Origin: Bacteroidales bacterium
Lineage (GTDB): Bacteria > Bacteroidota > Bacteroidia > Bacteroidales > F082
Length of the DNA: 64,000 nt
Assembly: GCA_021647205.1 (NCBI GenBank)
Contig: JAKIVD010000014.1
Coordinates: 1 to 64,000, forward strand
Reading direction: 5' to 3'
In this document: positions 6,968-38,781 of the stretch, in pieces
Layout of the letters: each line of letters begins with the position of its first letter
Position numbering within the stretch: the first letter of the stretch is position 1
Made by a program: the position numbers and the translations under genes
Notes under the pieces: model-generated
The model's database searches: none
What the model saw: the letters and a program-made list of their open reading frames with translations, nothing else
What the model was told of the DNA's origin: nothing

Positions 6968-8047
6968 TTAAGTTTTGATTTTAAACGAGGAAACAAGCTC
7001 CCTCAACATCTCCGCCGTTTTCACCGGTTCATCTTTTTCCACATCAATTTCAATGATATTTTTCGGGTTGCGGCTTTCGTTTCCGTGGTGGTAGGATTTG
7101 TCGTAATAAAACAAGATAATCCCGGCTACTTTTTTTACATTGCCCAATTCGAGTGCTTCTCTGGCTTGTTTGGTGGCCAGTCCGCCGAGGCGCTGTTCAA
7201 TTTTCTTAAGGGATTGCAACAGGCCTTCGGGCTCCAATTCGCCATATTCTTTGACCAGCCGTTTTTCGCGCTCTGCTTTTGGGACGATGATTTTCAATAG
7301 TACGCTGTTGCGCATCTTTTGAAACAAAGGGTCGGGGATGCCGCATCGGCCCAGCATCCGGCTTTCATCTTCCACCCAAATCGTCCTTTTAAAATCAAAT
7401 TTACGCCAGGCATCTGCCAGATTATTTTCAAACTGTTCGTTGCCGGGTTGAGGCTCCTGTCCTAAATGACCAAAAGCCGAGCCCTTGTGCTTGGCAATTC
7501 CTTCGATGTCCAGAAATTGCTCCCCTGATTTTTCCAGGACCTTCAAAACATCCGTTTTGCCACTACCGGTATAACCTCCCAATACAATCATTTTTGCCTC
7601 TCTTGAAAACTGCTGGCGGATAAACCGGCGATAAGCTTTGTAACCCCCATCGAGTGTTCGGGCTTTTAAACCGGCCGTTTCAAAAAGCCAGGCCATGCTT
7701 GCCGAGCGCATGCCACCACGCCAGCAATGCACCAGTATTTCTTTTTTAGATGCCAGCCTTTTGGCCTCTTTGGCAAAACCGGCCAACTTCGGCCCGACAA
7801 TTTCCAGTCCGAGCAAAACTGCGTTTTCGTTGCCTCCCTGTTTGTAACGGATGCCCACAGCAGCCCTTTCATCATCACTAAATAGCGGAATATTAACGGC
7901 TCCCGGAATATGTCCTTCGGTAAACTCTTTGGGTGAACGGACATCGACCAATGGCAGGATGTCTGTCAGTGGAAGGAAGCTTTCGATGGTTAGTTTTTCA
8001 GGCAAGTTTTTTGTATTTTGGCTCAGACGCTTCCAGGAACTACGCAC
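6968..8047 (-). CDS. mnmH: tRNA 2-selenouridine synthase MnmH/SelU
   Basis: It has the two-domain build of MnmH. A rhodanese domain (VDVRSPKEFTEGHIPGAVNI) carries the catalytic Cys-Trp pair in HCWRGGMRSASM (Cys108 when counted from the ATG at 8047). A P-loop domain follows with GGYTGSGKT (residues ~157-165). The enzyme replaces sulfur by selenium in the wobble 2-thiouridine of certain tRNAs, using selenophosphate from SelD, encoded nearby on the same strand. The first ~8 codons lie in a REP-like palindrome (8025-8059), so the true start may be the in-frame TTG at 8005, giving MPEKLTIESF, closer to family N-termini. Its 3' end shares a 31-nt repeat with DNA beyond the toxin-antitoxin pair. Confidence 0.92.
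   Translation of the reverse strand: MRSSWKRLSQNTKNLPEKLTIESFLPLTDILPLVDVRSPKEFTEGHIPGAVNIPLFSDDERAAVGIRYKQGGNENAVLLGLEIVGPKLAGFAKEAKRLASKKEILVHCWRGGMRSASMAWLFETAGLKARTLDGGYKAYRRFIRQQFSREAKMIVLGGYTGSGKTDVLKVLEKSGEQFLDIEGIAKHKGSAFGHLGQEPQPGNEQFENNLADAWRKFDFKRTIWVEDESRMLGRCGIPDPLFQKMRNSVLLKIIVPKAEREKRLVKEYGELEPEGLLQSLKKIEQRLGGLATKQAREALELGNVKKVAGIILFYYDKSYHHGNESRNPKNIIEIDVEKDEPVKTAEMLRELVSSFKIKT
7027..7057. repeat. Partner copy of the 31-nt repeat, within mnmH
   Basis: This segment encodes part of IIEIDVEKDEP in MnmH and matches 6309-6339 at 29 of 31 positions in direct orientation, 718 bp apart. Confidence 0.8.
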
Positions 8048-8059
8048 GCTGGAAGGTCT
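8025..8059. repeat. REP-like palindrome, CTTCCAG...CTGGAAG family, copy 1
   Basis: 35 nt with arms AGACGCTTCCAG and CTGGAAGGTCT. It matches the copy at 8254-8288 at 33 of 35 positions. It overlaps the first codons of the longest mnmH reading frame. Confidence 0.75.
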
Positions 8060-8203
8060 GAAGAAACATTTTCTTTTACTTTTAGTCGTCTGACCACAGA
8101 TTGTTTCGGCGTATAGTGGTCGGACGACTGCTGACTGAAGATTGCCGACTGTCCAAAGGGTTGCTTTGCAGAAGACCGGAAGGCCTTGTGTTGTTTTATC
8201 AAC

Positions 8204-8294: not shown

Positions 8295-10916
8295 TTATCC
8301 CAGCCCTTTCAACTGCTCTTCAATCACTTTAATCCGCGCTTCAGCATCCGCAGCTTTCTTTTTTTCTTTGTCGACCACTGCGGCCGGGGCATTGCTCACG
8401 AAGCGCTCATTGGATAGCTTTTTTGTAACCGAAGCCAGAAAACCACGGGTGTATTTCAGTTCTTCTTGCAGTTTGCCGATTTCAGCTTCTACATCAATAC
8501 TGTCGGTAACCGGAATAAAATATTCCTGTGCCCCGACCGTGAAAGTGAGGGCGCCCTCAGGTTTAGCGTCGACAATTTCGATGCTTTCGATATTTCCCAA
8601 TTTGGCCACCACAGGATTGAAAATGCAATCAGCCCATTCGCCGGATTTCACCTGCATGCTGATGCTTTCTTTTTGCGGGATGTTCTTGTCTTTGCGCACG
8701 TTACGGATGGCAATAATAATTTGTTCTGCTCTTTCAAAAGCACCAATGATTTTATTGTCAATTTGCTGCGAAACCGGCATTTTTGCAACAATAATGTCAT
8801 CGCTTTCCTTACGCTCCCGCAACAAATGCCAGATTTCTTCGGTAATAAAAGGCATAAAAGGATGCAGGATTTTCATCAGTTTCTCGAAGAACAAGAGGGT
8901 GCTTTCCAGCGTTGCAGCGTCGATAGGCTGTTGGTAGGAAGGTTTGATAATTTCGAGATACCAACTGCAAAAATCGTCCCAAATGAGCTTGTAAGTGGCC
9001 ATCAACGCTTCCGAAATACGGTAATCGGTAAAGTTGTTCTCGATGGAGGCCAGGGCTTTGTTGAAGCGGCTTTCGAACCATTGAATACCCAGCTTGCTGC
9101 TTTCGGGCTGAGGAATTTCCTCATCCGCTTGCCAGCCTTTTACCAACCGCAGGGCATTCCATATTTTATTAGAGAAATTTCGTCCCTGCTCGCAGAGTGC
9201 CGGGTCGAAAGGCAGGTCGTTGCCGGCAGGCGCGGTCAGCAACATCCCAATGCGTACACCGTCGGCACCGTAATGGTTCATCAGTTCGATGGGGTCGGGC
9301 GAGTTGCCCAAAGTTTTTGACATCTTACGGCCTTGTTTGTCACGGACAATCCCTGTAAAATATACATTTTTAAAGGGGATTTCCTTGCGGTATTCTTGTC
9401 CGGCCATAATCATCCGTGCCACCCAAAAGAAAATAATGTCGGGCCCGGTCACCAAATCGTTGGTGGGGTAGTAGTAATTGATTTCTTTGTTGTCGGGAAA
9501 ACGAATGCCATCAAAAACAGAAATGGGCCACAGCCAGGAAGAGAACCAGGTGTCGAGCACATCTTCATCCTGTTTCAGGTCGGCAGCAGTCAGGGAAGGA
9601 TTGTATTTTTCCTGAGCCAGTTTGAGGGCTTCTTCGGCTGATTTAGCCACCACGAAGTCGCCATCGGGCAGGTAGTAAACCGGGATGCGCTGGCCCCACC
9701 ACAATTGGCGCGAGATATTCCAGTCGCGCAGGTTTTCCATCCAGTGGCGGTAGGTATTTTTGAATTTTTTGGGATGGAATTGAATGCTGTCGTTTTCCAC
9801 CGCTTCGAGTGCCGGTTTGGCAAATTCACCCATTTTTAAAAACCACTGCAAGGATAGTTTGGGTTCGATAACGGCATCCGTCCGCTCCGAAAAACCGACT
9901 TTGTTCACATAGTCTTCAACTTTATCAAGGCTACCCGATTTTTCCAAATCCACCAGAATTTCTTTCCGGACTTCAAAGCGGTCTTTGCCAATGTAGAGTT
10001 CGGCCTTTTCACTCATGGTTCCGTCATCATTAAAAATATCGATGGTTTTGAGTTTGTGTTTTAAGCCCAATTCGTAGTCATGAATATCGTGGGCCGGTGT
10101 GATTTTCAGTGCGCCGGTTCCAAATTCACGGTCAACATATTCGTCCTGAATAATTGGAACCGCACGCTTCACCAAAGGCACAACAACCTTTTTCCCGTGG
10201 AATTTTACAAAACGCTCATCTTCGGGATGCACACAAACAGCCGTGTCGCCCAAAATGGTTTCGGGACGGGTGGTGGCGATGGTGATGTAGTTGTCTTCAC
10301 CTTCCACCCGGTATTTTAAATAATAGAGTTTCGATTGTAATTCCTTGTGGTTTACCTCTTCGTCAGAAACGGCTGTCTGGGCTTTGGGGTCCCAGTTCAC
10401 CATGCGGATGCCGCGGTAAATTAACCCCTTATTGAACAAATCAACAAATACGTCAATCACCGATTCGTAAAGGGATTCGTCCATGGTAAAAGCCGTCCGT
10501 TCCCAATCGCAGGAAGCACCAAGTTTTTTCAGTTGCTCCAGAATAATACCGCCGTGTTTTTCTTTCCATTCCCAGGCGTGGGCCATAAATTCATCGCGGC
10601 TGATGTCGGCTTTGTCGATACCTTCGGCTTTCAGCTTGGCAACCACTTTGGCCTCGGTGGCGATGGAAGCATGGTCGGTTCCGGGTACCCAACAGGCGTT
10701 TTTCCCCAGCATACGGGCACGACGGATGAGCACATCCTGCAAAGTGTTGTTGAGCATGTGCCCCATGTGCAAAACACCGGTAACATTGGGCGGGGGGATG
10801 ACGATGGTAAAGGGCTCCCTTTCGTCGGGTTCCGAATGAAAATAGTTTTTTTCCATCCACCAGGCGTACCACTTGTCTTCGGTTTTGGCAGGATTGTATT
10901 TGCTGGGTATTTCCAT
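8295..10916 (-). CDS. valS: Valyl-tRNA synthetase
   Basis: A class I aminoacyl-tRNA synthetase of 873 residues that charges tRNA-Val. The ATP-binding HIGH signature reads [15 protein letters not shown] near residue 40. The second signature is [12 protein letters not shown] in the catalytic domain. The editing (CP1) insertion lies between them ([25 protein letters not shown]). The anticodon domain and a C-terminal coiled coil ([19 protein letters not shown]) complete the family architecture. MEIPSKYNP at 10916 is the likely start; a -7 element at 10942-10949 argues against the longer frame from 10967. Confidence 0.97.
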
Positions 10917-31026: not shown

Positions 31027-32355
31027 TCAAAACGACCATTTTAAATCGAGGAAAACCATTTGGCCGATGTCGCCAAATTCGGTAAATTGATTTCCCCAAA
31101 AAAGCTGTCCGTTCAGGAGAAGGGAAATGTTGTCGGTCAGGCTGAAAGTTACCGATGGGCCAACAAAGACCGATTTGTCGTAAGGATTATAAATGGAGGC
31201 CAGGCCCAGGCTAATCAGCGGAGTGGCCGGATAAGTAAGCTGTCCGAAAATGTCAAATCTTGAGCGTGTTAGGTTTTTGGCATTGAGGTTGTTTGCAAAA
31301 ACGGAAGATGCTGAACCCAGAAAACCGCCAATGCCGGCATTGGCCGGTCCGGCTACCCCGGCGCTGTTGTAAATCCCTGAGAAATTAACAAAAATGCTGT
31401 TCTTAAAAGTATAGTTCACAGCAATTGAAGCGACCACAACAGCATTGGTGTCAGCAAAGTTGTGTCGGTCGCGAAACCAGGAGACTTCACCGGTAAAGCC
31501 CGCCCCGCCAATGTTGCCTGCCCATCCCAGGCCCGCTGTAAAGTCGGTGACCATGTAACCACCAAATACCTGGAAATCATAATTCCACTTGTTGAACCTG
31601 TACATGGCCGCCGTTGTAAGTTTGAGTTCTTTAATTACCAGGTTGGAATCGTTTAATGATTCAACGTAAGCTAATTTTCCGGCAAGTTGTACCGAGGAGA
31701 AATCGCCGGTATAGAATTCCATTTTGAGGGCATCGCTTCCGGGGCGCTCCACGTAATTGAAATCAAAATAATTATAGGCGTTAAAAATATCATTTGGGTT
31801 CCAAATCATGTTCGCTCCCCAGTTGATGCGTTGGCGCCCGACGGTCAGTTCAAACTTGTCTGCCGTCCATGTAAAATTCAGGCGGTCGAAAGTTGTGTAA
31901 AGGATGTAGGATTTGCCATCGGCGATGGTAAATGTCAAATCGAAGTAGCCGTTGTCTTTAGTAAGAAGCTCGTTGTAATCAATCCCCGCTTTGGAGAACA
32001 GCTCATTATAATTGGCAACCAGCGGGCCAAAGAAAAAGTTGTTCCGCATACCAGCGTAAAATTCCAGGTTTTTAAGCGGTGTCCACCAGAGGTTAAAGCG
32101 GTTGTAAACAGAAGATTGGTTTTGCCAGTCGGTAAATCCGATGGTATTGTAAATCTCTCCTTGCGGAATCCAGGTATTGTTGAGGTATTCAAGGAAACCG
32201 GTCATCTCGAGCTTTTTATTCTGCGCGTGGGTAAATGAAATACATGAAAAAAACAGAATAATAATAAGTGTGCTCCTGAAGAATCTAATGCTTTCGCTCT
32301 TCCGGATTTGTAACCTGGAAGTAAGGGGGATAGGATTTCTAAATCTACTTTTCAT
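31027..32355 (-). CDS. Outer-membrane beta-barrel, DUF1302/alginate-export-like
   Basis: 442 residues with a signal peptide after a long basic leader (RSTLIIILFFSCISFTHAQ). The mature part is made of amphipathic strands and contains GRQRINWGANMIWNPNDIF, a motif typical of DUF1302-like porins that sit next to LolA-like proteins and lipid or hydrophobe exporters. It ends in VFLDLKWSF, an aromatic C-terminus for barrel insertion. It is the last gene of the LolA-FtsX-FtsX-LolD cluster, but is separated from lolD by a RAYT insertion. Its ATG overlaps the RAYT stop (ATGA), so it may now depend on coupling or read-through. A later start within the basic leader is possible. Confidence 0.75.
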   Translation of the reverse strand: MKSRFRNPIPLTSRLQIRKSESIRFFRSTLIIILFFSCISFTHAQNKKLEMTGFLEYLNNTWIPQGEIYNTIGFTDWQNQSSVYNRFNLWWTPLKNLEFYAGMRNNFFFGPLVANYNELFSKAGIDYNELLTKDNGYFDLTFTIADGKSYILYTTFDRLNFTWTADKFELTVGRQRINWGANMIWNPNDIFNAYNYFDFNYVERPGSDALKMEFYTGDFSSVQLAGKLAYVESLNDSNLVIKELKLTTAAMYRFNKWNYDFQVFGGYMVTDFTAGLGWAGNIGGAGFTGEVSWFRDRHNFADTNAVVVASIAVNYTFKNSIFVNFSGIYNSAGVAGPANAGIGGFLGSASSVFANNLNAKNLTRSRFDIFGQLTYPATPLISLGLASIYNPYDKSVFVGPSVTFSLTDNISLLLNGQLFWGNQFTEFGDIGQMVFLDLKWSF

Positions 32356-32800
32356 ATTAGTGCGACATCAATCAATCCAGGTTCGCCGGCATAGTTTTTT
32401 GCTGAACTGTAAATGTATTCATGAGCATTGTCAACCATTTCTGCCTGAACCGCGTTTTCGTGTATGTAATTAACCTTTTGCTCTAAAAATGAGGTTGAAT
32501 GAATTTCTTTTGCTTCATTGCCATCTTGCCTAAACTTAAAGTTCTTGATATTTGATTTGTGCCTTCCGGCAAATTCAAACTCACTCAGCAGCCATTTTTT
32601 TCTACTTTTTTCAGCATTTTCTTCAATTTCTTTTACAGTGGCTTTGCTGGTGAGTTTTTTGAAATCGCGCAGGAAGTCTGATAAATGATGTTCATCATCA
32701 GTTTCAGCGACTAAATGTAAATGGTTGCTCATCAAACACCATGCAGAAAGTATAAGTCCTTTATTTGCCTGATTGTATTTCAATGCATCAACGATTATAT

Positions 32801-33159: not shown

Positions 33160-33849
33160 CTATCTTTCAAACCGTTCATCTGACAAAATCCTGCCATCTT
33201 CAATGCTTACTATCCGTCGGGCTTTGTCCATTACACGCTGGTCGTGGGTGGCGAAAATGAAAGTGGTGTTGTATTTTTTGTTCATTTCCGCCATCATCTC
33301 CAACAAACTTGTTGTGGCTTTGGAGTCGAGGTTGGCCGTGGGTTCGTCGGCAAGGATAAATTTGGGGCGGGACGCCAAAGCCCGTGCCACGGCTACCCGT
33401 TGTTGTTGCCCGCCGGATAATTTCCCCGGACGGCTGTTTATCCTGTCCGCTAGTCCTACGGCTTCAAGTAGTTCTTTGGTTCGCATGCCGCGTTCTTTTT
33501 TGGGCATGCCCTGCAATTGCATGATGAACTCCACGTTTTCGCCGGCAGTGAGTACAGGTATTAAATTATAAGCCTGGAAAACGAAACCAATATTGTTCAT
33601 CCTGAAATCGATGAGTTTTCTTGAACTTAATTCCCAAACGTTGGCACCGCCGATAACCACTTCGCCCGATGTGGGCCGGTCGAGTCCGCCAAGCATATTT
33701 AAGAAGGTGGTTTTTCCGGAGCCCGAAGGGCCGACAATCGCCGCAAACTCGCCTTCCTCAAAATCAATACTGATACCGTTGACCGCTTTTACTTTTACTT
33801 CGCCGGTGTTGTAGGTTTTTTTCAGGTTTCTTATTTCGATTACTTTCAT
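33160..33849 (-). CDS. LolD-type ABC transporter ATP-binding protein
   Basis: 229 residues with all ABC ATPase motifs: Walker [11 protein letters not shown]-loop in [13 protein letters not shown], signature [15 protein letters not shown], Walker [13 protein letters not shown] and the switch His in FATHDQRV. It belongs to the LolD/MacB/FtsE group that drives FtsX-type permeases. The two permeases directly upstream on the same strand are its partners. It energises transfer of a lipid or lipoprotein from the inner membrane, or mechanically drives a periplasmic carrier. The gap to the next operon gene is filled by the RAYT insertion. Confidence 0.92.
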
Positions 33850-33951: not shown

Positions 33952-35169
33952 CTACTCCATCCGCAAGGCGTCAGCCGGATCGTTCTTTAAAGCTTTGTAG
34001 GCCGGATACAGTGCGGCAATTACACCGGTAATCATCACCATTATGCTTACATTCACAAGCATCACCGGGTCCACAGATGTATAAACAAACGCATCGTATC
34101 CCAGTTGCTGGTAGCCTTGTGCCCACATCGACAGGTCGACCGGATGCGTTTCCCCGTATTTCGCAGTCAGGGCGCCAATGACAATTCCCACAATTCCTCC
34201 TGTAATTGACAACAAGATAGATTCCAGGACAATCATGGTGAAAATCCGTCTTTTGTTCATGCCCACAGCCATCAGCATGCCCAGCTCTTTCCTGCGTTCC
34301 ATCACGACCATCAACATGGTGTTGATGATGCCGAAGAGCAGCGCCAGCAAAATGATGATGATGAAAACATACATGTAAATACCCATGGCTTCGGTGAGGT
34401 AGTTCATTTCGGGGCTGAGGGCTTTCCAGTTCATCACTTCTTTGTCTCCCGCTATTTCCTTTACCTGACTTTCCACGAGGGACAGGTTTTCACTCGCGTC
34501 AATGTTAATGGCAATTTCGTGTGCGGCCGTTGCGGGAAAAGCGGTGAGTTTGATTAAAGCGGACGAGCGGATGAACACCCGTGATTCATCAAACAAATTG
34601 TTGTCGGTTGAATAGATACCCGCCACCCTGAAAGCACCTGACGTAATGTTGTTGTCGAGGTCCTGAAGGGTAATAACAACTTTCGACCTGACTTTCACGT
34701 TCAGTTTTTCGGCCAGCTTTTTACCAATTACGATGGGGTTTCTTTTGATGCCGTCGAAATAGGCACCTTCAATAATTTTTGTGTTCAGGTTAGTGACCGT
34801 GGATTCGATGGCCGGATCGATGCCGGCAATCAATACACCCGAAGCCGTCTCGGCAGAGGCAAGCATTGATTGGATAAGGATACGTTGACTGACGCCTGTA
34901 ACGTGGGGCAACTGACGGATTTTTGCCGTAAGCGCGCTTCCGTCAGGAATAAAGTTGCCAAAGTCTGAATTCTGCCTGTAGTCCGGCTGGTGGATTTGGA
35001 TGTAGGACAATTCTGTATTGATGACTTTTTGAATGCGCTGATCGGCCATCCCTTTAAAAAAGGCAGCCGAGAACACGCCGGCAAAAATGCCAATCGCGAT
35101 AGAGAAAATAATCACAAGGCTTCTCACCTTGTTCCGCCAAATGTTCCGCCAGGAAATGGAAAGTATCAT
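33952..35169 (-). CDS. FtsX/LolE-type ABC permease 2
   Basis: 405 residues with the four-helix MacB/FtsX layout. One helix is at the N-terminus (IIFSIAIGIFAGVFSAAFF) after the basic motif SWRNIWRNKVRS. A ~220-residue periplasmic domain follows. Three C-terminal helices come last (YVFIIIILLALLFGIINTMLM, ERRKELGMLMAVGMNKR before the second, and VSIMVMITGVIAALYPAY). The RRKELG motif is the coupling region to the LolD ATPase. The paired permease upstream has the same length, so a LolCDE-like heterodimer is likely. Confidence 0.88.
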   Translation of the reverse strand: MILSISWRNIWRNKVRSLVIIFSIAIGIFAGVFSAAFFKGMADQRIQKVINTELSYIQIHQPDYRQNSDFGNFIPDGSALTAKIRQLPHVTGVSQRILIQSMLASAETASGVLIAGIDPAIESTVTNLNTKIIEGAYFDGIKRNPIVIGKKLAEKLNVKVRSKVVITLQDLDNNITSGAFRVAGIYSTDNNLFDESRVFIRSSALIKLTAFPATAAHEIAINIDASENLSLVESQVKEIAGDKEVMNWKALSPEMNYLTEAMGIYMYVFIIIILLALLFGIINTMLMVVMERRKELGMLMAVGMNKRRIFTMIVLESILLSITGGIVGIVIGALTAKYGETHPVDLSMWAQGYQQLGYDAFVYTSVDPVMLVNVSIMVMITGVIAALYPAYKALKNDPADALRME

Positions 35170-35173
35170 GGGT

Positions 35174-35210
35174 CAAAAGTTAAAAGTTAAAAGTTAAAAG
35201 TTAAAAGTTA
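35174..35210. repeat. Heptamer array AAAAGTT (5 units)
   Basis: Short array between the two permease genes of one operon, directly before the start codon of the downstream one. Confidence 0.85.
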
Positions 35211-35235
35211 ATAGTCAAAATCTCATGTCTGTTAA

Positions 35236-36453
35236 TCATGCTCTCAAAGCTGTATTTACTTTTATTGTCAGTGCTTTGTAAACGGGAAAGATGGCGATAA
35301 CGAGTGTAATGATGAAAATTGTAGTGGCCTGTGAGTAAAAGACAAAGGGCGCCATCGAAAAATACATGAAAGGTTCAATGCCCATTTCAATCATGGTTTG
35401 GGCGGCATCCCCGGTCAACGGTATCGGATTGTAGAAAAAATATTGAATGATGGGGATGCTGCCGACAAGTCCCGCAACTGCCCCGATAGACCCAATAAAA
35501 AGCGTTTCGTAAAACAGCAGTTTGCCCAGTTTGATTTTTTGCATACCGATGGCCACCATTACCCCCAGTTCGCGCCTGCGCTCCGAAATCATCATCAAAA
35601 TGGTGCCGAAAATCCCAAAGCCCACCAGCAGGTACAAAATGGCTTTCATCACCAATCCGCCGGCTTTGTCAGCTTCTATCATCGAAACAAGTTCGGGTTG
35701 CAACTCATCCCAGGACATGACCATGAAAGGTGCAGTTATTTTTTTCTTCAACTGTTTCATCACCCCTGGTAATTCATAGTGATCTTTCACCATAATGACG
35801 AGGGAAGTAAGTCTGTTTTCAGCTGAAAACAATTCCTGGCAGTTTGTGATGCTCATGTAAACAAATTGTTTGTTCAGCTCGGGGGAAGGGAATTTAAGAA
35901 TGCCCTTTACCGCATATTTTCCCGCGGCCATCACACCATGAAATCCCTGTCCGTACAGCACCAGCGTATCACCAATGTTTACCTGTAAATATCTGGCAAG
36001 GTCGATGGCCACCAGCACACCTTTGTCATTCTTCGTTAAATAATTCCCCTTGTGAACCCATTTCTTTGTTCCGGTTACTTTATTTTCCTGGGCAGGATCG
36101 ATGCCGATGACCAGGGTGCCCTTGGTAATTTCTTTGGAAGAGGCCAGGGCAAAGTATTCGAGGCGCGGGGCATATTCTGTAACTCCCCGGGTTTCCTCAA
36201 CGATGCGCATTAATGCATCGCCCAGTTCAAAAGAGTTGTTGATGGTCTTGTTTTCGTGGTATTCTTCCGTAAATATTTGTGCGTAGCCCGAATAGAATTT
36301 AACAATGTTGTCAATCATGGCATCATACGAACCGTACTGCATAGATGTCATTAGGGTGGAGAAGATCACACCGAAGAAAATGGAAGCTGAGGTAATCAGT
36401 GTCCGCCTGGTGTTCCTCCATAGATTTCGCCATGCCAGTATTACATCTTTCAT
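35236..36453 (-). CDS. FtsX/LolE-type ABC permease 1
   Basis: 405 residues from MKDVILAWRNLWRN. Same architecture as its neighbour: an N-terminal helix (LITSASIFFGVIFSTLM), a periplasmic domain (~residues 45-270) and three C-terminal helices, with MISERRRELGVMVAIGMQK at the ATPase contact. It probably forms the second half of a LolCE-like pair. The start at 36453 is chosen for the conserved N-terminal motif shared with the other permease. Confidence 0.88.
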   Translation of the reverse strand: MKDVILAWRNLWRNTRRTLITSASIFFGVIFSTLMTSMQYGSYDAMIDNIVKFYSGYAQIFTEEYHENKTINNSFELGDALMRIVEETRGVTEYAPRLEYFALASSKEITKGTLVIGIDPAQENKVTGTKKWVHKGNYLTKNDKGVLVAIDLARYLQVNIGDTLVLYGQGFHGVMAAGKYAVKGILKFPSPELNKQFVYMSITNCQELFSAENRLTSLVIMVKDHYELPGVMKQLKKKITAPFMVMSWDELQPELVSMIEADKAGGLVMKAILYLLVGFGIFGTILMMISERRRELGVMVAIGMQKIKLGKLLFYETLFIGSIGAVAGLVGSIPIIQYFFYNPIPLTGDAAQTMIEMGIEPFMYFSMAPFVFYSQATTIFIITLVIAIFPVYKALTIKVNTALRA

Positions 36454-36505
36454 TGGTTGGGGTTTTATGTGTTTAAGCTGTTTGCTTGTCGGAAAAAGCA
36501 CGAGT

Positions 36506-37273
36506 TTACCGCAGGCGTTTCATGTTTTGCTTGGTGAAAAAACTGTTGTCGATTGGCTGGTCGAAAACAAGGTTTTTAAATTCCATGATGGTTTTTCTGC
36601 CTGGTTCGTCGGCCGGTATCATTTCAATATGTGTGGGGATTTTCCGGTCTCCCATTTGCCGGATGCTTGAAGAAATTTCGGTATTTGCCAAATAGCCGTC
36701 CTCGTCGTAGTATTCTGACCGCCACATGTTAAAGCCTTCTTTGGTGACCCACGAAATAATTTTCCCCCAAACCACGGCGGCATCCTCATGCGGGATGAGC
36801 TCAATTTTGTAACAGTCCATTTTCCGGATGTTTTCCTCACCCAACAGGTGATGGTCGTAATCGGTAACGATGGAAGATTGTTTTACAAGGTCGTCGTTGG
36901 TAAAATCCGAACCCATCCATGACTGCATCATCATCGAAGGCGGAATTTTAATCATGCGCGAGATGGAAGGCACCCAGTTCCACATTTCTTTATCCACTTT
37001 AAGAAAAACCTGGCCTTTTTCCTTTGCCGGTGCCGTTATGTAAATAACAAAATATTTGTCCCCTTTCGACCAGGTTTTCATGCTGATGGAACGCTCCCAT
37101 TTCGGCCTGACGATGGTCATGGTCATTTCACCCTGACTGGTTTCACCACGGTTCTTTTTATCGGCTTTGGCCACAATTTCTTTGGCCGTGAGTTCCTGTG
37201 ATTGAGATTGAAATCCCGTCAGCAACAATCCCCCGAAAATGAGGGTTGCTATTATTAAACGGGTTGTTTTCAT
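36506..37273 (-). CDS. LolA-like outer-membrane lipoprotein-sorting protein
   Basis: 255 residues. A signal peptide (RLIIATLIFGGLLLTGFQSQ) is followed by one domain of the LolA-like fold: MTMTIVRPKWERSISMKTW, VFLKVDKEMWNWVPSISRM and QSWMGSDFTNDDLVKQ. This is the PF17131-type profile often encoded beside lipid/hydrophobe exporters and DUF1302-like barrels. It probably acts as a periplasmic carrier taking substrate from the two FtsX permeases to the outer membrane. It lies first in the export operon, just after the TetR gene. Confidence 0.82.
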   Translation of the reverse strand: MKTTRLIIATLIFGGLLLTGFQSQSQELTAKEIVAKADKKNRGETSQGEMTMTIVRPKWERSISMKTWSKGDKYFVIYITAPAKEKGQVFLKVDKEMWNWVPSISRMIKIPPSMMMQSWMGSDFTNDDLVKQSSIVTDYDHHLLGEENIRKMDCYKIELIPHEDAAVVWGKIISWVTKEGFNMWRSEYYDEDGYLANTEISSSIRQMGDRKIPTHIEMIPADEPGRKTIMEFKNLVFDQPIDNSFFTKQNMKRLR

Positions 37274-37390
37274 GTGCTTTAGTTTTAAATTAATCCTTTG
37301 TTTATGATTTATTGTCTTTTCAATTTTCTTGAAATTAAACATTTTTTCATTGTCTGCTTATTAATATCCGTGCATCCGCGGCTATTATTT

Positions 37391-37966
37391 TTACACAAAT
37401 CGTTCAATAATTATTTTTTTCATTTCTTCCAGGGGGTACAAGTCAGCTTTGTAAACATAATGAAAGCCCACACCATCCAATAATGCCCCGACAAGCGCTG
37501 CTTCGAGTACCGGGTCTTTTACACCTTTTTTACGGTAATAGTCAACCATTGTTTTAATGATGGGTTCAATCATCCCCGGTAGTTTAGATTCAAATAATTT
37601 CCACACTGAAGGCTGCATTATCAGGGCGAAGTACAATTTGTAAAAACTGCGCTTGGCACTCATCAGGCTGAATATATCTTCGATGAAGCAGGTGAATTCT
37701 TCACGGGTCAAAATGCCATCCTTGTCGGTGTCGAACATTTGGAGCATTTCTCCCATCCCTTCCATCATGATTGAGGTTAACAAATCTTCCTTGCTCTCGA
37801 AATAGTTGTACATCAGGCCTTTCGATACCCCTGCTTTTTTGGCAATCTTGCTGATGGACGCGCTTTCGTAACCGTGTTCTGCAAAAACTTCCAGGGCCGT
37901 ATCCGTGATGGCCTTTCTGCGTTCTTTGCGAATCTGTTCCAGTTGCTGTGGTGTACGTGGCGACAT
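37391..37966 (-). CDS. TetR/AcrR-family regulator with an embedded EF-hand loop
   Basis: 191 residues. Residues ~17-63 form the TetR DNA-binding domain with helix-turn-helix SISKIAKKAGVSKGLMYNYF. Right after it, residues 79-90 read DTDKDGILTREE, a textbook EF-hand calcium loop (Asp at 1, 3 and 5, Gly at 6, Leu at 8, Glu at 12) between helices MGEMLQMF and FTCFIEDIFSLM. The rest (SVWKLFESKLPGMIEPII, VLEAALVGALLDGVGFHYVYK) is the usual helical dimer and ligand domain. The gene heads the LolA-FtsX-LolD-barrel cluster on the same strand, so it probably represses that cluster and its own promoter. Calcium binding is inferred from the loop alone. Confidence 0.88.
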   Translation of the reverse strand: MSPRTPQQLEQIRKERRKAITDTALEVFAEHGYESASISKIAKKAGVSKGLMYNYFESKEDLLTSIMMEGMGEMLQMFDTDKDGILTREEFTCFIEDIFSLMSAKRSFYKLYFALIMQPSVWKLFESKLPGMIEPIIKTMVDYYRKKGVKDPVLEAALVGALLDGVGFHYVYKADLYPLEEMKKIIIERFV

Positions 37967-38200
37967 TTTAGTTCAAAGTTTAATGTTCAGAGTGCCTGTG
38001 GTACAAATCCAGATGAGCGGTGTGACATTATTTATGACTGAACGGTCGGTCAAAGATAAACATTAGATTTGACTTGTCAAGTGTTTTGTCATTTTCTTTT
38101 TAATCCTTGACTGTGGATTTCTTTGGTAGAGGAGTCAGGAGGCCGGAATGCCGCGACTTGAAGAGGGTAGTTCTGGTTTGGCGGAATATTTCTTCTTTTA

Positions 38201-38259: not shown

Positions 38260-38781
38260 ATGTCAGTGGAATACGTAGTACTTGTTAACAAAAACGACCA
38301 GCCACTCGGCGGGATGGAAAAGATGGAAGCCCACGAAAAAGGGGTGTTGCACAGGGCTTTCTCCGTTTTCATTTTTAATACTGAAGGAAAGATGTTGCTT
38401 CAGAAACGGGCTGATGAAAAATACCATTCGCCGGGATTGTGGACCAACACGGTTTGCAGCCATCCCCGCACGGGTGAAAAAACGATTGATGCAGCCCACC
38501 GCCGTATCGTTGAAGAAATGGGTTTTGACTGTGCGTTTGAAGAAGCTTTCTCATTTGTTTACAAGGCCGACGTAGGGCAGGGGCTTACCGAGCACGAGTA
38601 TGACCATGTTTTTATCGGCGAATCAGACACCCGTCCCAATCCCAATCCTGAAGAAGTGGGCGATTGGAAATATGTGAAGCTTGATTGGGTTGTGCAGGAT
38701 GTAAAAAACAGTCCCGGCAATTACACGGTGTGGTTTAAAATCGCCCTGAAAGAGGTGGCGGACTATTTTGAGAAAAAGTAG
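38260..38781 (+). CDS. idi: Isopentenyl-diphosphate delta-isomerase, type I
   Basis: 173 residues of the Nudix-fold isomerase that converts isopentenyl to dimethylallyl diphosphate for isoprenoid synthesis. Active-site features: Cys66 in TNTVCSHPRTGE, the Nudix-like RRIVEEMGFDC helix, and Glu111/Glu113 in the LTEHEYDHVF metal site. It is a stand-alone gene with its own promoter. Between its stop and parC (38782-39074) I see no gene. Confidence 0.95.
   Translation: MSVEYVVLVNKNDQPLGGMEKMEAHEKGVLHRAFSVFIFNTEGKMLLQKRADEKYHSPGLWTNTVCSHPRTGEKTIDAAHRRIVEEMGFDCAFEEAFSFVYKADVGQGLTEHEYDHVFIGESDTRPNPNPEEVGDWKYVKLDWVVQDVKNSPGNYTVWFKIALKEVADYFEKK

Follow-up and report, generated by a model that had tools for sequence, protein, structure and literature searches.

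A TetR-family repressor encoded in the window (the whole 64,000-nucleotide stretch of Bacteroidales DNA analyzed here) may be one of the rare bacterial gene switches that respond directly to calcium. Its sequence suggests an autoregulating repressor of a Lol-like envelope export operon in which the turn between helices alpha4 and alpha5 has become a single, unpaired EF-hand-type loop, and Ca2+ binding at this loop may modulate repression. The use of Ca2+ as an intracellular signal by bacteria is an old open question, and to our knowledge proteins that read Ca2+ straight into transcription are scarce.

An EF-hand-type loop in the hinge of a TetR-type regulator

The regulator, 191 aa long, is made up as follows.

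37391..37966, minus strand: TetR-family repressor, head of the operon (translation; TetR_N match; AlphaFold2 model; fold match)
37775..37909, minus strand: TetR_N DNA-binding domain, residues 20-64 (Pfam coordinates)
37733..37792, minus strand: alpha4, residues 59-78, joined to the DNA-binding domain and predicted to form the E-helix of the EF-hand (AlphaFold2/DSSP)
37697..37732, minus strand: EF-hand-type loop DTDKDGILTREE, residues 79-90 (translation, Pfam, conservation, shuffles)
37655..37705, minus strand: alpha5, residues 88-104, predicted F-helix of the EF-hand (AlphaFold2/DSSP)

The initial annotation had placed a calcium loop at residues 79-90 of a TetR-family regulator, and the translation agrees: DTDKDGILTREE runs from 37732 down to 37697 on the minus strand and satisfies the EF-hand consensus at positions 1, 3, 5, 6, 8, 9 and 12. 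The protein matches the TetR_N model (PF00440) at 66.5 bits (cut-off 24, E 1.7e-18) and the EF-hand_1 model at 24.2 bits (E 2.1e-5), just missing the curated Pfam cut-off of 25.4. In alignment A1, composed of the window protein plus 50 of the 80 loci from the contig scan described below, TetR_N was found in all 51 members and EF-hand_1 in 29, both at E<=0.01, and the stretch KGLMYNYFESK in the DNA-binding domain is invariant or nearly so. When ten loop-bearing relatives were scanned singly, three scored above the EF-hand_1 cut-off (L048, L051 and L061, at 28.3, 27.0 and 25.8 bits), four fell at 19-22.5 bits, and three had no EF-hand match at E<=0.001. Pairing, the usual trait of EF-hands, is absent here, the regulator's EF-hand being single; no second EF loop was found elsewhere in the protein or in the six neighboring proteins checked. 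Because the score lies below the cut-off and the loop is unpaired, we class the window protein among the TetR proteins, as one that bears an EF-hand-type loop, and not as a member of the Pfam EF-hand family. A chance motif was rejected, as the loose EF pattern arose in 58 of 200,000 shuffles of the regulator and the strict pattern in one of 200,000, and in the 102 relatives the loose pattern occurred at none of the 15,511 positions that lie beyond the loop region.

The AlphaFold2 model, built from 51 rows (pLDDT 93.6, pTM 0.86), has a helix at residues 59-78, a loop at 79-87 and a helix at 88-104, which are alpha4 and alpha5 of the TetR fold, and the all-helical C-terminal ligand domain of that fold is also present. 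The model thus gives a helix-loop-helix at the loop and not a continuous helix, in keeping with the initial annotation; the flanking helices described there are indeed present, but as written they were too short, alpha4 spanning 59-78 and alpha5 88-104. By prediction, then, the helices are arranged as in an EF-hand, at an angle that the weak fragment matches give no more than roughly. Among PDB entries the best fold match is 1vi0 and Bacillus subtilis FadR (TMq 0.72), and the 50 matches that Foldseek listed for the full model are all TetR-type regulators by title.

Modeled alone, the fragment 58-108 (pLDDT 84.7, pTM 0.51) gave 24 Foldseek matches at E<=10, with 22 in the EF-hand superfamily by title or inference; 3ll8, 8gm4, 1m8q, 3pn7 and 9syu are presumed members, counted there from their titles. 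These matches are weak singly, with a best E of 0.51 and two top-ranked ones at an rmsd of 8 Å or more. The fragment lies within 0.6 Å of the calmodulin C-lobe over 30 columns in Foldseek, and a second aligner, VIA, placed it at 0.8 Å from EhCaBP1 over 42 residues (Z 4.8); the best Z from VIA was 5.6, a value that the tool warns may mean merely a common arrangement, and AlphaFold2 may have learnt the helix-loop-helix shape from the sequence. A profile of 16 loop segments had 274 matches at E<=0.1 among PDB sequences, the best 60 of the 274 being nearly all EF-hand or calcium-binding proteins by name. Lanmodulin came out on top (7.2e-10), in a search whose E-values add up several EF-hands per chain and whose single stretches are weak (i-Evalue 0.26 for lanmodulin, 0.029 for 2m7n). 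The segment sets behind these tests, A2 (16 rows) and A3 (32 rows), were picked among loop-bearing relatives, L073 entering A3 with five of the six positions, and both the PDB profile and the fragment models speak to what the loop looks like where it is present, not to how frequent it is. Taken together, the loop segment resembles Ca2+-binding EF-hands in profile and predicted fold, weakly match by match.

The insertion of a foreign domain was considered and rejected, as FadR departs by a single residue at the turn and relatives that lack the loop align across the alpha4-alpha5 turn with no or few gaps. The loop looks like an altered TetR turn rather than an inserted domain, because FadR, which has none of the ligands there, aligns across this turn with a single gap. 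In TetR proteins alpha4 carries the DNA-binding head.

Conservation and history of the loop

Relatives were collected in two ways, from 60 related genomes and by a contig scan with six peptide patterns, none of them inside the loop, which gave 80 loci. From the 110 best open reading frames we removed the remote homologues L027-L030 and four identical proteins, leaving 102 relatives; L058, L183 and L193, with unread letters (X) in the region, were retained. Conservation of the Asp and Glu positions, on which the initial annotation had let its case depend, is borne out in many of these proteins: of the 102 distinct relatives, 52 show the complete set of six consensus positions, with partial loops of five positions in 6, four in 4 and three in 3, and the remaining 37 have 0-2. 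The loop is not a chance product: 52 relatives keep all six positions although identity outside the loop drops to 28%.

To rank the columns we took the 50 relatives most similar to the regulator outside the loop (lowest identity 44%) and the 123 columns of the ligand domain. Loop positions 1, 5, 6, 8 and 12 rank 32, 48, 54, 29 and 28, with position 9 at 35 and position 3 at 59, whereas the non-ligand positions 2, 4, 7 and 10 rank 93, 105, 87 and 94; non-ligand position 11, at 53, is level with ligand positions 5 and 6. Conservation in several other columns of the ligand domain exceeds that of every loop column, and the ligand positions are not among the most conserved because whole lineages are without the site. 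On the tree, with a chosen state for each loop position, 9-14 changes were counted at positions 1, 3, 5, 6, 8, 9 and 12 and 15-22 at positions 2, 4, 7, 10 and 11. Both measures indicate that most metal-ligand positions are held while most neighboring loop positions drift. Within the 52 canonical loops, position 12 is Glu in every one, though the classification allowed a wider choice, and position 3 is Asn or Asp only, though the definition permitted more. For a coupled loss of ligand residues the tree offers only five independent pairs on well-supported branches, too few for a sign test to reach 0.05. Half of the relatives, some inside the window's own family, are without the full site, and the loop is therefore dispensable for the regulator's core task.

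For the wider distribution we searched with a family profile from alignment A1 at E<=1e-25, a profile that includes the loop and is biased toward loop-bearing matches. A homologue was present in 50 of 198 genomes of the order Bacteroidales, and the 52 homologues in this sample comprise 25 with six positions, 6 with five, 8 with three or four and 13 with two or fewer. The class sample had a match in 21 of 198 genomes and the phylum sample in 20 of 148; leaving aside the genome of the window itself, the loop is canonical in 2 of 22 rows of the class sample and in none of 19 rows of the phylum sample, and L135 enters both of these counts. Loop-bearing relatives of known order belong to Bacteroidales or Marinilabiliales, and loop-less ones include Flavobacteriales, Saprospirales and Cytophagales, and Bacteroidales too. 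Canonical loops are clustered, with 16 changes versus 34.3 in shuffles, on a quick tree from which the loop columns had been left out and in which 37 of 99 inner branches are open; this tree is too loose for counting gains and losses. The trait appears to lie mainly in one order, Bacteroidales, and its history is most likely a gain within that order followed by several losses, some of them in the window's own family.

Promoter, predicted operator and operon

The upstream region and the genes that follow the regulator contain these features.

38078..38080, minus strand: -33 element TTG (promoter pattern)
38051..38058, minus strand: -7 box TATCTTTG, overlapping the operator by two bases (promoter pattern)
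38035..38052, minus strand: predicted operator TGACCGACCGTTCAGTCA, an 18-bp near-palindrome (upstream comparison, assembly scan)
36506..37342, minus strand: LolA-like outer-membrane lipoprotein-sorting protein, next gene after the regulator (PF17131, 6.9e-58; synteny)
35236..36501, minus strand: FtsX/MacB-type permease, LolC/E-like (domain matches)
33952..35169, minus strand: second FtsX/MacB-type permease, LolC/E-like (domain matches)
33160..33849, minus strand: ABC ATPase, LolD-like (ABC_tran, 5.4e-34; LolD_lipo_ex, 1.6e-70)
31027..32355, minus strand: putative outer-membrane protein, syntenic last gene (synteny)

Operator statistics were taken from 81 of the 102 upstream regions, those with a recognized start and at least 60 bases. 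With up to two mismatches, the TGACCGACCGTTCAGTCA pattern, which was drawn from the same 81, occurs in 79 of them, versus 0 of 1620 base-shuffled sequences, whose shuffling preserved single-base composition only, and 0 of 81 reversed ones. It is equally common whatever the state of the loop (48/48 with a full loop, 9/10 with a partial one and 22/23 with none). The loop-less relatives L012 and L018 have an operator identical to that of the window. We take TATCTTTG to be a -7 box of the Bacteroidota TAnnTTTG type; the operator starts on the last two bases of such a box in 71 of the 79, and 64 of these upstreams have, besides the box, a TTG 18-21 bases further up. The module of TTG, TAnnTTTG and TGACCGACCGTTCAGTCA marks the regulator across Bacteroidota, independent of the loop.

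In the 3.53-Mb assembly, 38035-38052 is the only site with fewer than two mismatches to the operator pattern. A wider regulon was rejected, the 27 oriented matches with up to two mismatches comparing with 22 for a control pattern. Read from sequence, the layout is that of a dedicated self-regulating repressor blocking its own promoter at a predicted operator, and we infer that the palindrome is bound by the regulator itself, as TetR-family proteins usually, though not always, bind a palindrome at their own promoter. An isopentenyl-diphosphate isomerase gene (38260-38781) is divergent from the regulator, the intergenic region being common to both, an arrangement that recurs in L004, L005, L009, L010, L031, L046 and L052.

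The initial annotation had the gene heading an envelope export cluster, and the LolA-like gene, two permeases, ATPase and outer-membrane candidate downstream uphold this. The LolCE and LolD models match operon proteins, all below their curated cut-offs (LolD_lipo_ex on the ATPase scores 237.1 bits, below 307.75), and for that reason we judge the operon from these matches to be Lol-like rather than Lol. The outer-membrane candidate had no Pfam match at E<=0.01 and no NCBIfam match at E<=1e-10. Between the ATPase and this gene, the open reading frame 32352-32783 resembles a REP-associated transposase, of which we take its MSNHLHLVAE to be a motif; in L031 the outer-membrane gene stands close behind the ATPase. 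L031, L040 and L046 have an extra permease, with two matches like the first permease and one like the second, and the window has two permeases (33952-36501).

A LolA-like gene lies in the loci of 85 of the 102 relatives, nearly always adjoining the regulator, and of the 17 loci without one, three (L008, L088 and L105) end within 300 bases. The canonical loop occurs in 46 of the 85 relatives with a LolA-like gene and in 6 of the 17 without; loop presence does not track the operon. Four loop-bearing relatives without a LolA-like neighbor have other surroundings, with names guessed from translations: in L067 a possible AraC-like gene, in L087 a second TetR gene with TolC/HlyD-type genes, in L049 a lone small protein, and in L096 an outer-membrane-like gene followed at some distance by ABC parts. 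Between the ABC transporter parts of L096 are two gene copies (7796-8137 and 9482-9910), which presumably resemble four-helix-bundle proteins.

Calcium as an added input, alternatives and comparison with known systems

How might such a loop act on the operon? We propose that it would bind Ca2+ in the cytosol and thereby shift the angle between alpha4, with its DNA-binding head, and alpha5. Fixing alpha4 or swinging it against alpha5 would change how far apart the two DNA-binding heads stand and could lower the affinity for the operator, so that the operon would be derepressed on a rise of cytosolic Ca2+, for example after envelope damage. Of the two directions we favor derepression, since TetR proteins are commonly induced through a shift of alpha4. 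The initial annotation suggested that calcium could signal envelope or outer-leaflet state; as the main signal, Ca2+ is unsupported so far and would be at most an added input, since loop-less relatives retain the same operator and operon. That the DNA target and the operon stay constant while the metal site comes and goes likewise suggests an added input rather than the core inducer. The other ligand of the switch would perhaps sit in the pocket, and the regulator's resemblance to FadR leads us to propose a lipid or an acyl-CoA-like molecule. Taken as a whole, Ca2+ as a modulating input to the regulator is the best explanation we can offer, and we give it an even chance of being right. Counting against it, lone EF-hands are often weak binders of Ca2+, and the bacterial cytosol contains little free Ca2+. 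More tentative, and held with less than even confidence, is the fuller proposal of a one-component bacterial transcription factor that reads cytosolic Ca2+ directly, whose hinge would have become an EF-hand in one or a few events within Bacteroidales, with repeated losses, while operator and operon stayed fixed and the envelope export operon became Ca2+-gated.

Alternatively, a permanently bound Ca2+ or Mg2+ might merely stiffen the alpha4-alpha5 turn and carry no signal, the inducer being a lipid or some different molecule bound in the C-terminal pocket. The operator and operon retained by loop-less relatives, whose turn aligns with no or few gaps, would fit such a role, as would a fold nearest the FadR proteins, some of which were solved with acyl-CoA; retention of Glu12 and of Asn or Asp at position 3 favors Ca2+-type coordination and is neutral on signaling. 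We consider this account somewhat unlikely, and improbable the further one that the loop is conserved for capping a helix and binds no metal in the cell. A cap would agree with the conservation of non-ligand position 11, which matches that of positions 5 and 6, and with relatives of very different loop letters that cross the same turn at nearly equal length, but most non-ligand positions vary while most ligand positions hold, and Gly6 and Glu12 would hardly be needed by a mere cap.

The metal itself might be another, the loop preferring lanthanides as lanmodulin does. Lanmodulin tops the PDB matches of the loop-segment profile, and Pro stands at loop position 2 in 34 of the 52 canonical loops (16 of 25 in the order sample), a residue that a study of lanmodulin peptides describes as very rarely seen in EF-hands of the calmodulin type and connects with selectivity for lanthanides (PMC12603986). 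The residue at position 2 of the window protein, however, is Thr, position 9 is Asp in lanmodulin loops 2 and 3 but mostly Thr or Ser among the relatives here, and the regulator is expected in the cytosol, all of which make a rare-earth sensor very improbable. A modulating Ca2+ input stays our preferred reading, and its candidate is ready for testing, being a small, apparently soluble protein with a predicted operator, a recognizable promoter and a single strong genomic site, for which the loop-less relatives that retain the operator form a natural control set. If the reading is true, no domain fusion is needed for an EF-hand to emerge within a fold that is already all-helical.

Among the closest known systems is FadR (YsiA) of Bacillus, an acyl-CoA-responsive TetR-type repressor (1vi0, 3whb, 3whc). 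It has the TetR fold in common with the regulator, and its N-terminal half aligns with it at 1.3e-16, through the alpha4-alpha5 turn; it is also the regulator's best NCBIfam match, at 71.1 bits, far below the cut-off of 200. The FadR turn is without EF-hand ligands, whereas that of the regulator has them, and FadR, with its TGA...TCA operator, controls fatty-acid genes, whereas the regulator heads a Lol-like export operon. Like calmodulin, EhCaBP1, NCS-1 and lanmodulin, the regulator has a 12-residue loop with consensus ligands between two helices. Those proteins carry paired EF-hands; here the EF-hand is single and made from two TetR helices.

Metal responses are found among TetR-family members, to which SczA also belongs. 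ComR, of the same family, is released from its promoter by copper (PMC10141476), and SczA is named a zinc efflux activator in the title of a reference in the cited literature; the two respond to metals other than calcium, and the excerpts at hand mention no EF-hand for either. EfhP of Pseudomonas aeruginosa is a bacterial EF-hand Ca2+ sensor that affects transcription (PMC11559002, PMC9132961). No TetR DNA-binding domain is described for it in the portions of these articles at hand, whereas the loop of the regulator sits inside a DNA-binding protein. Among the matches listed from the open-licence full-text literature, none describes a TetR regulator with an EF-hand, an absence that is not proof, and databases may well carry automatic annotations of such proteins. 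One apparent report, PMC7407188, was rejected, words such as "tetra-phosphatases" lying behind the match in the text at hand. The operon itself has counterparts in Porphyromonas gingivalis (PG1175-81) and Prevotella intermedia, where TetR/LolA-like/MMPL operons are reported to be raised under iron or hemin limitation (PMC10434189, PMC10470040). As in the window, a TetR regulator stands there with a LolA-like protein and exporter genes; those operons list an MMPL transporter, whereas the window operon has the FtsX pair.
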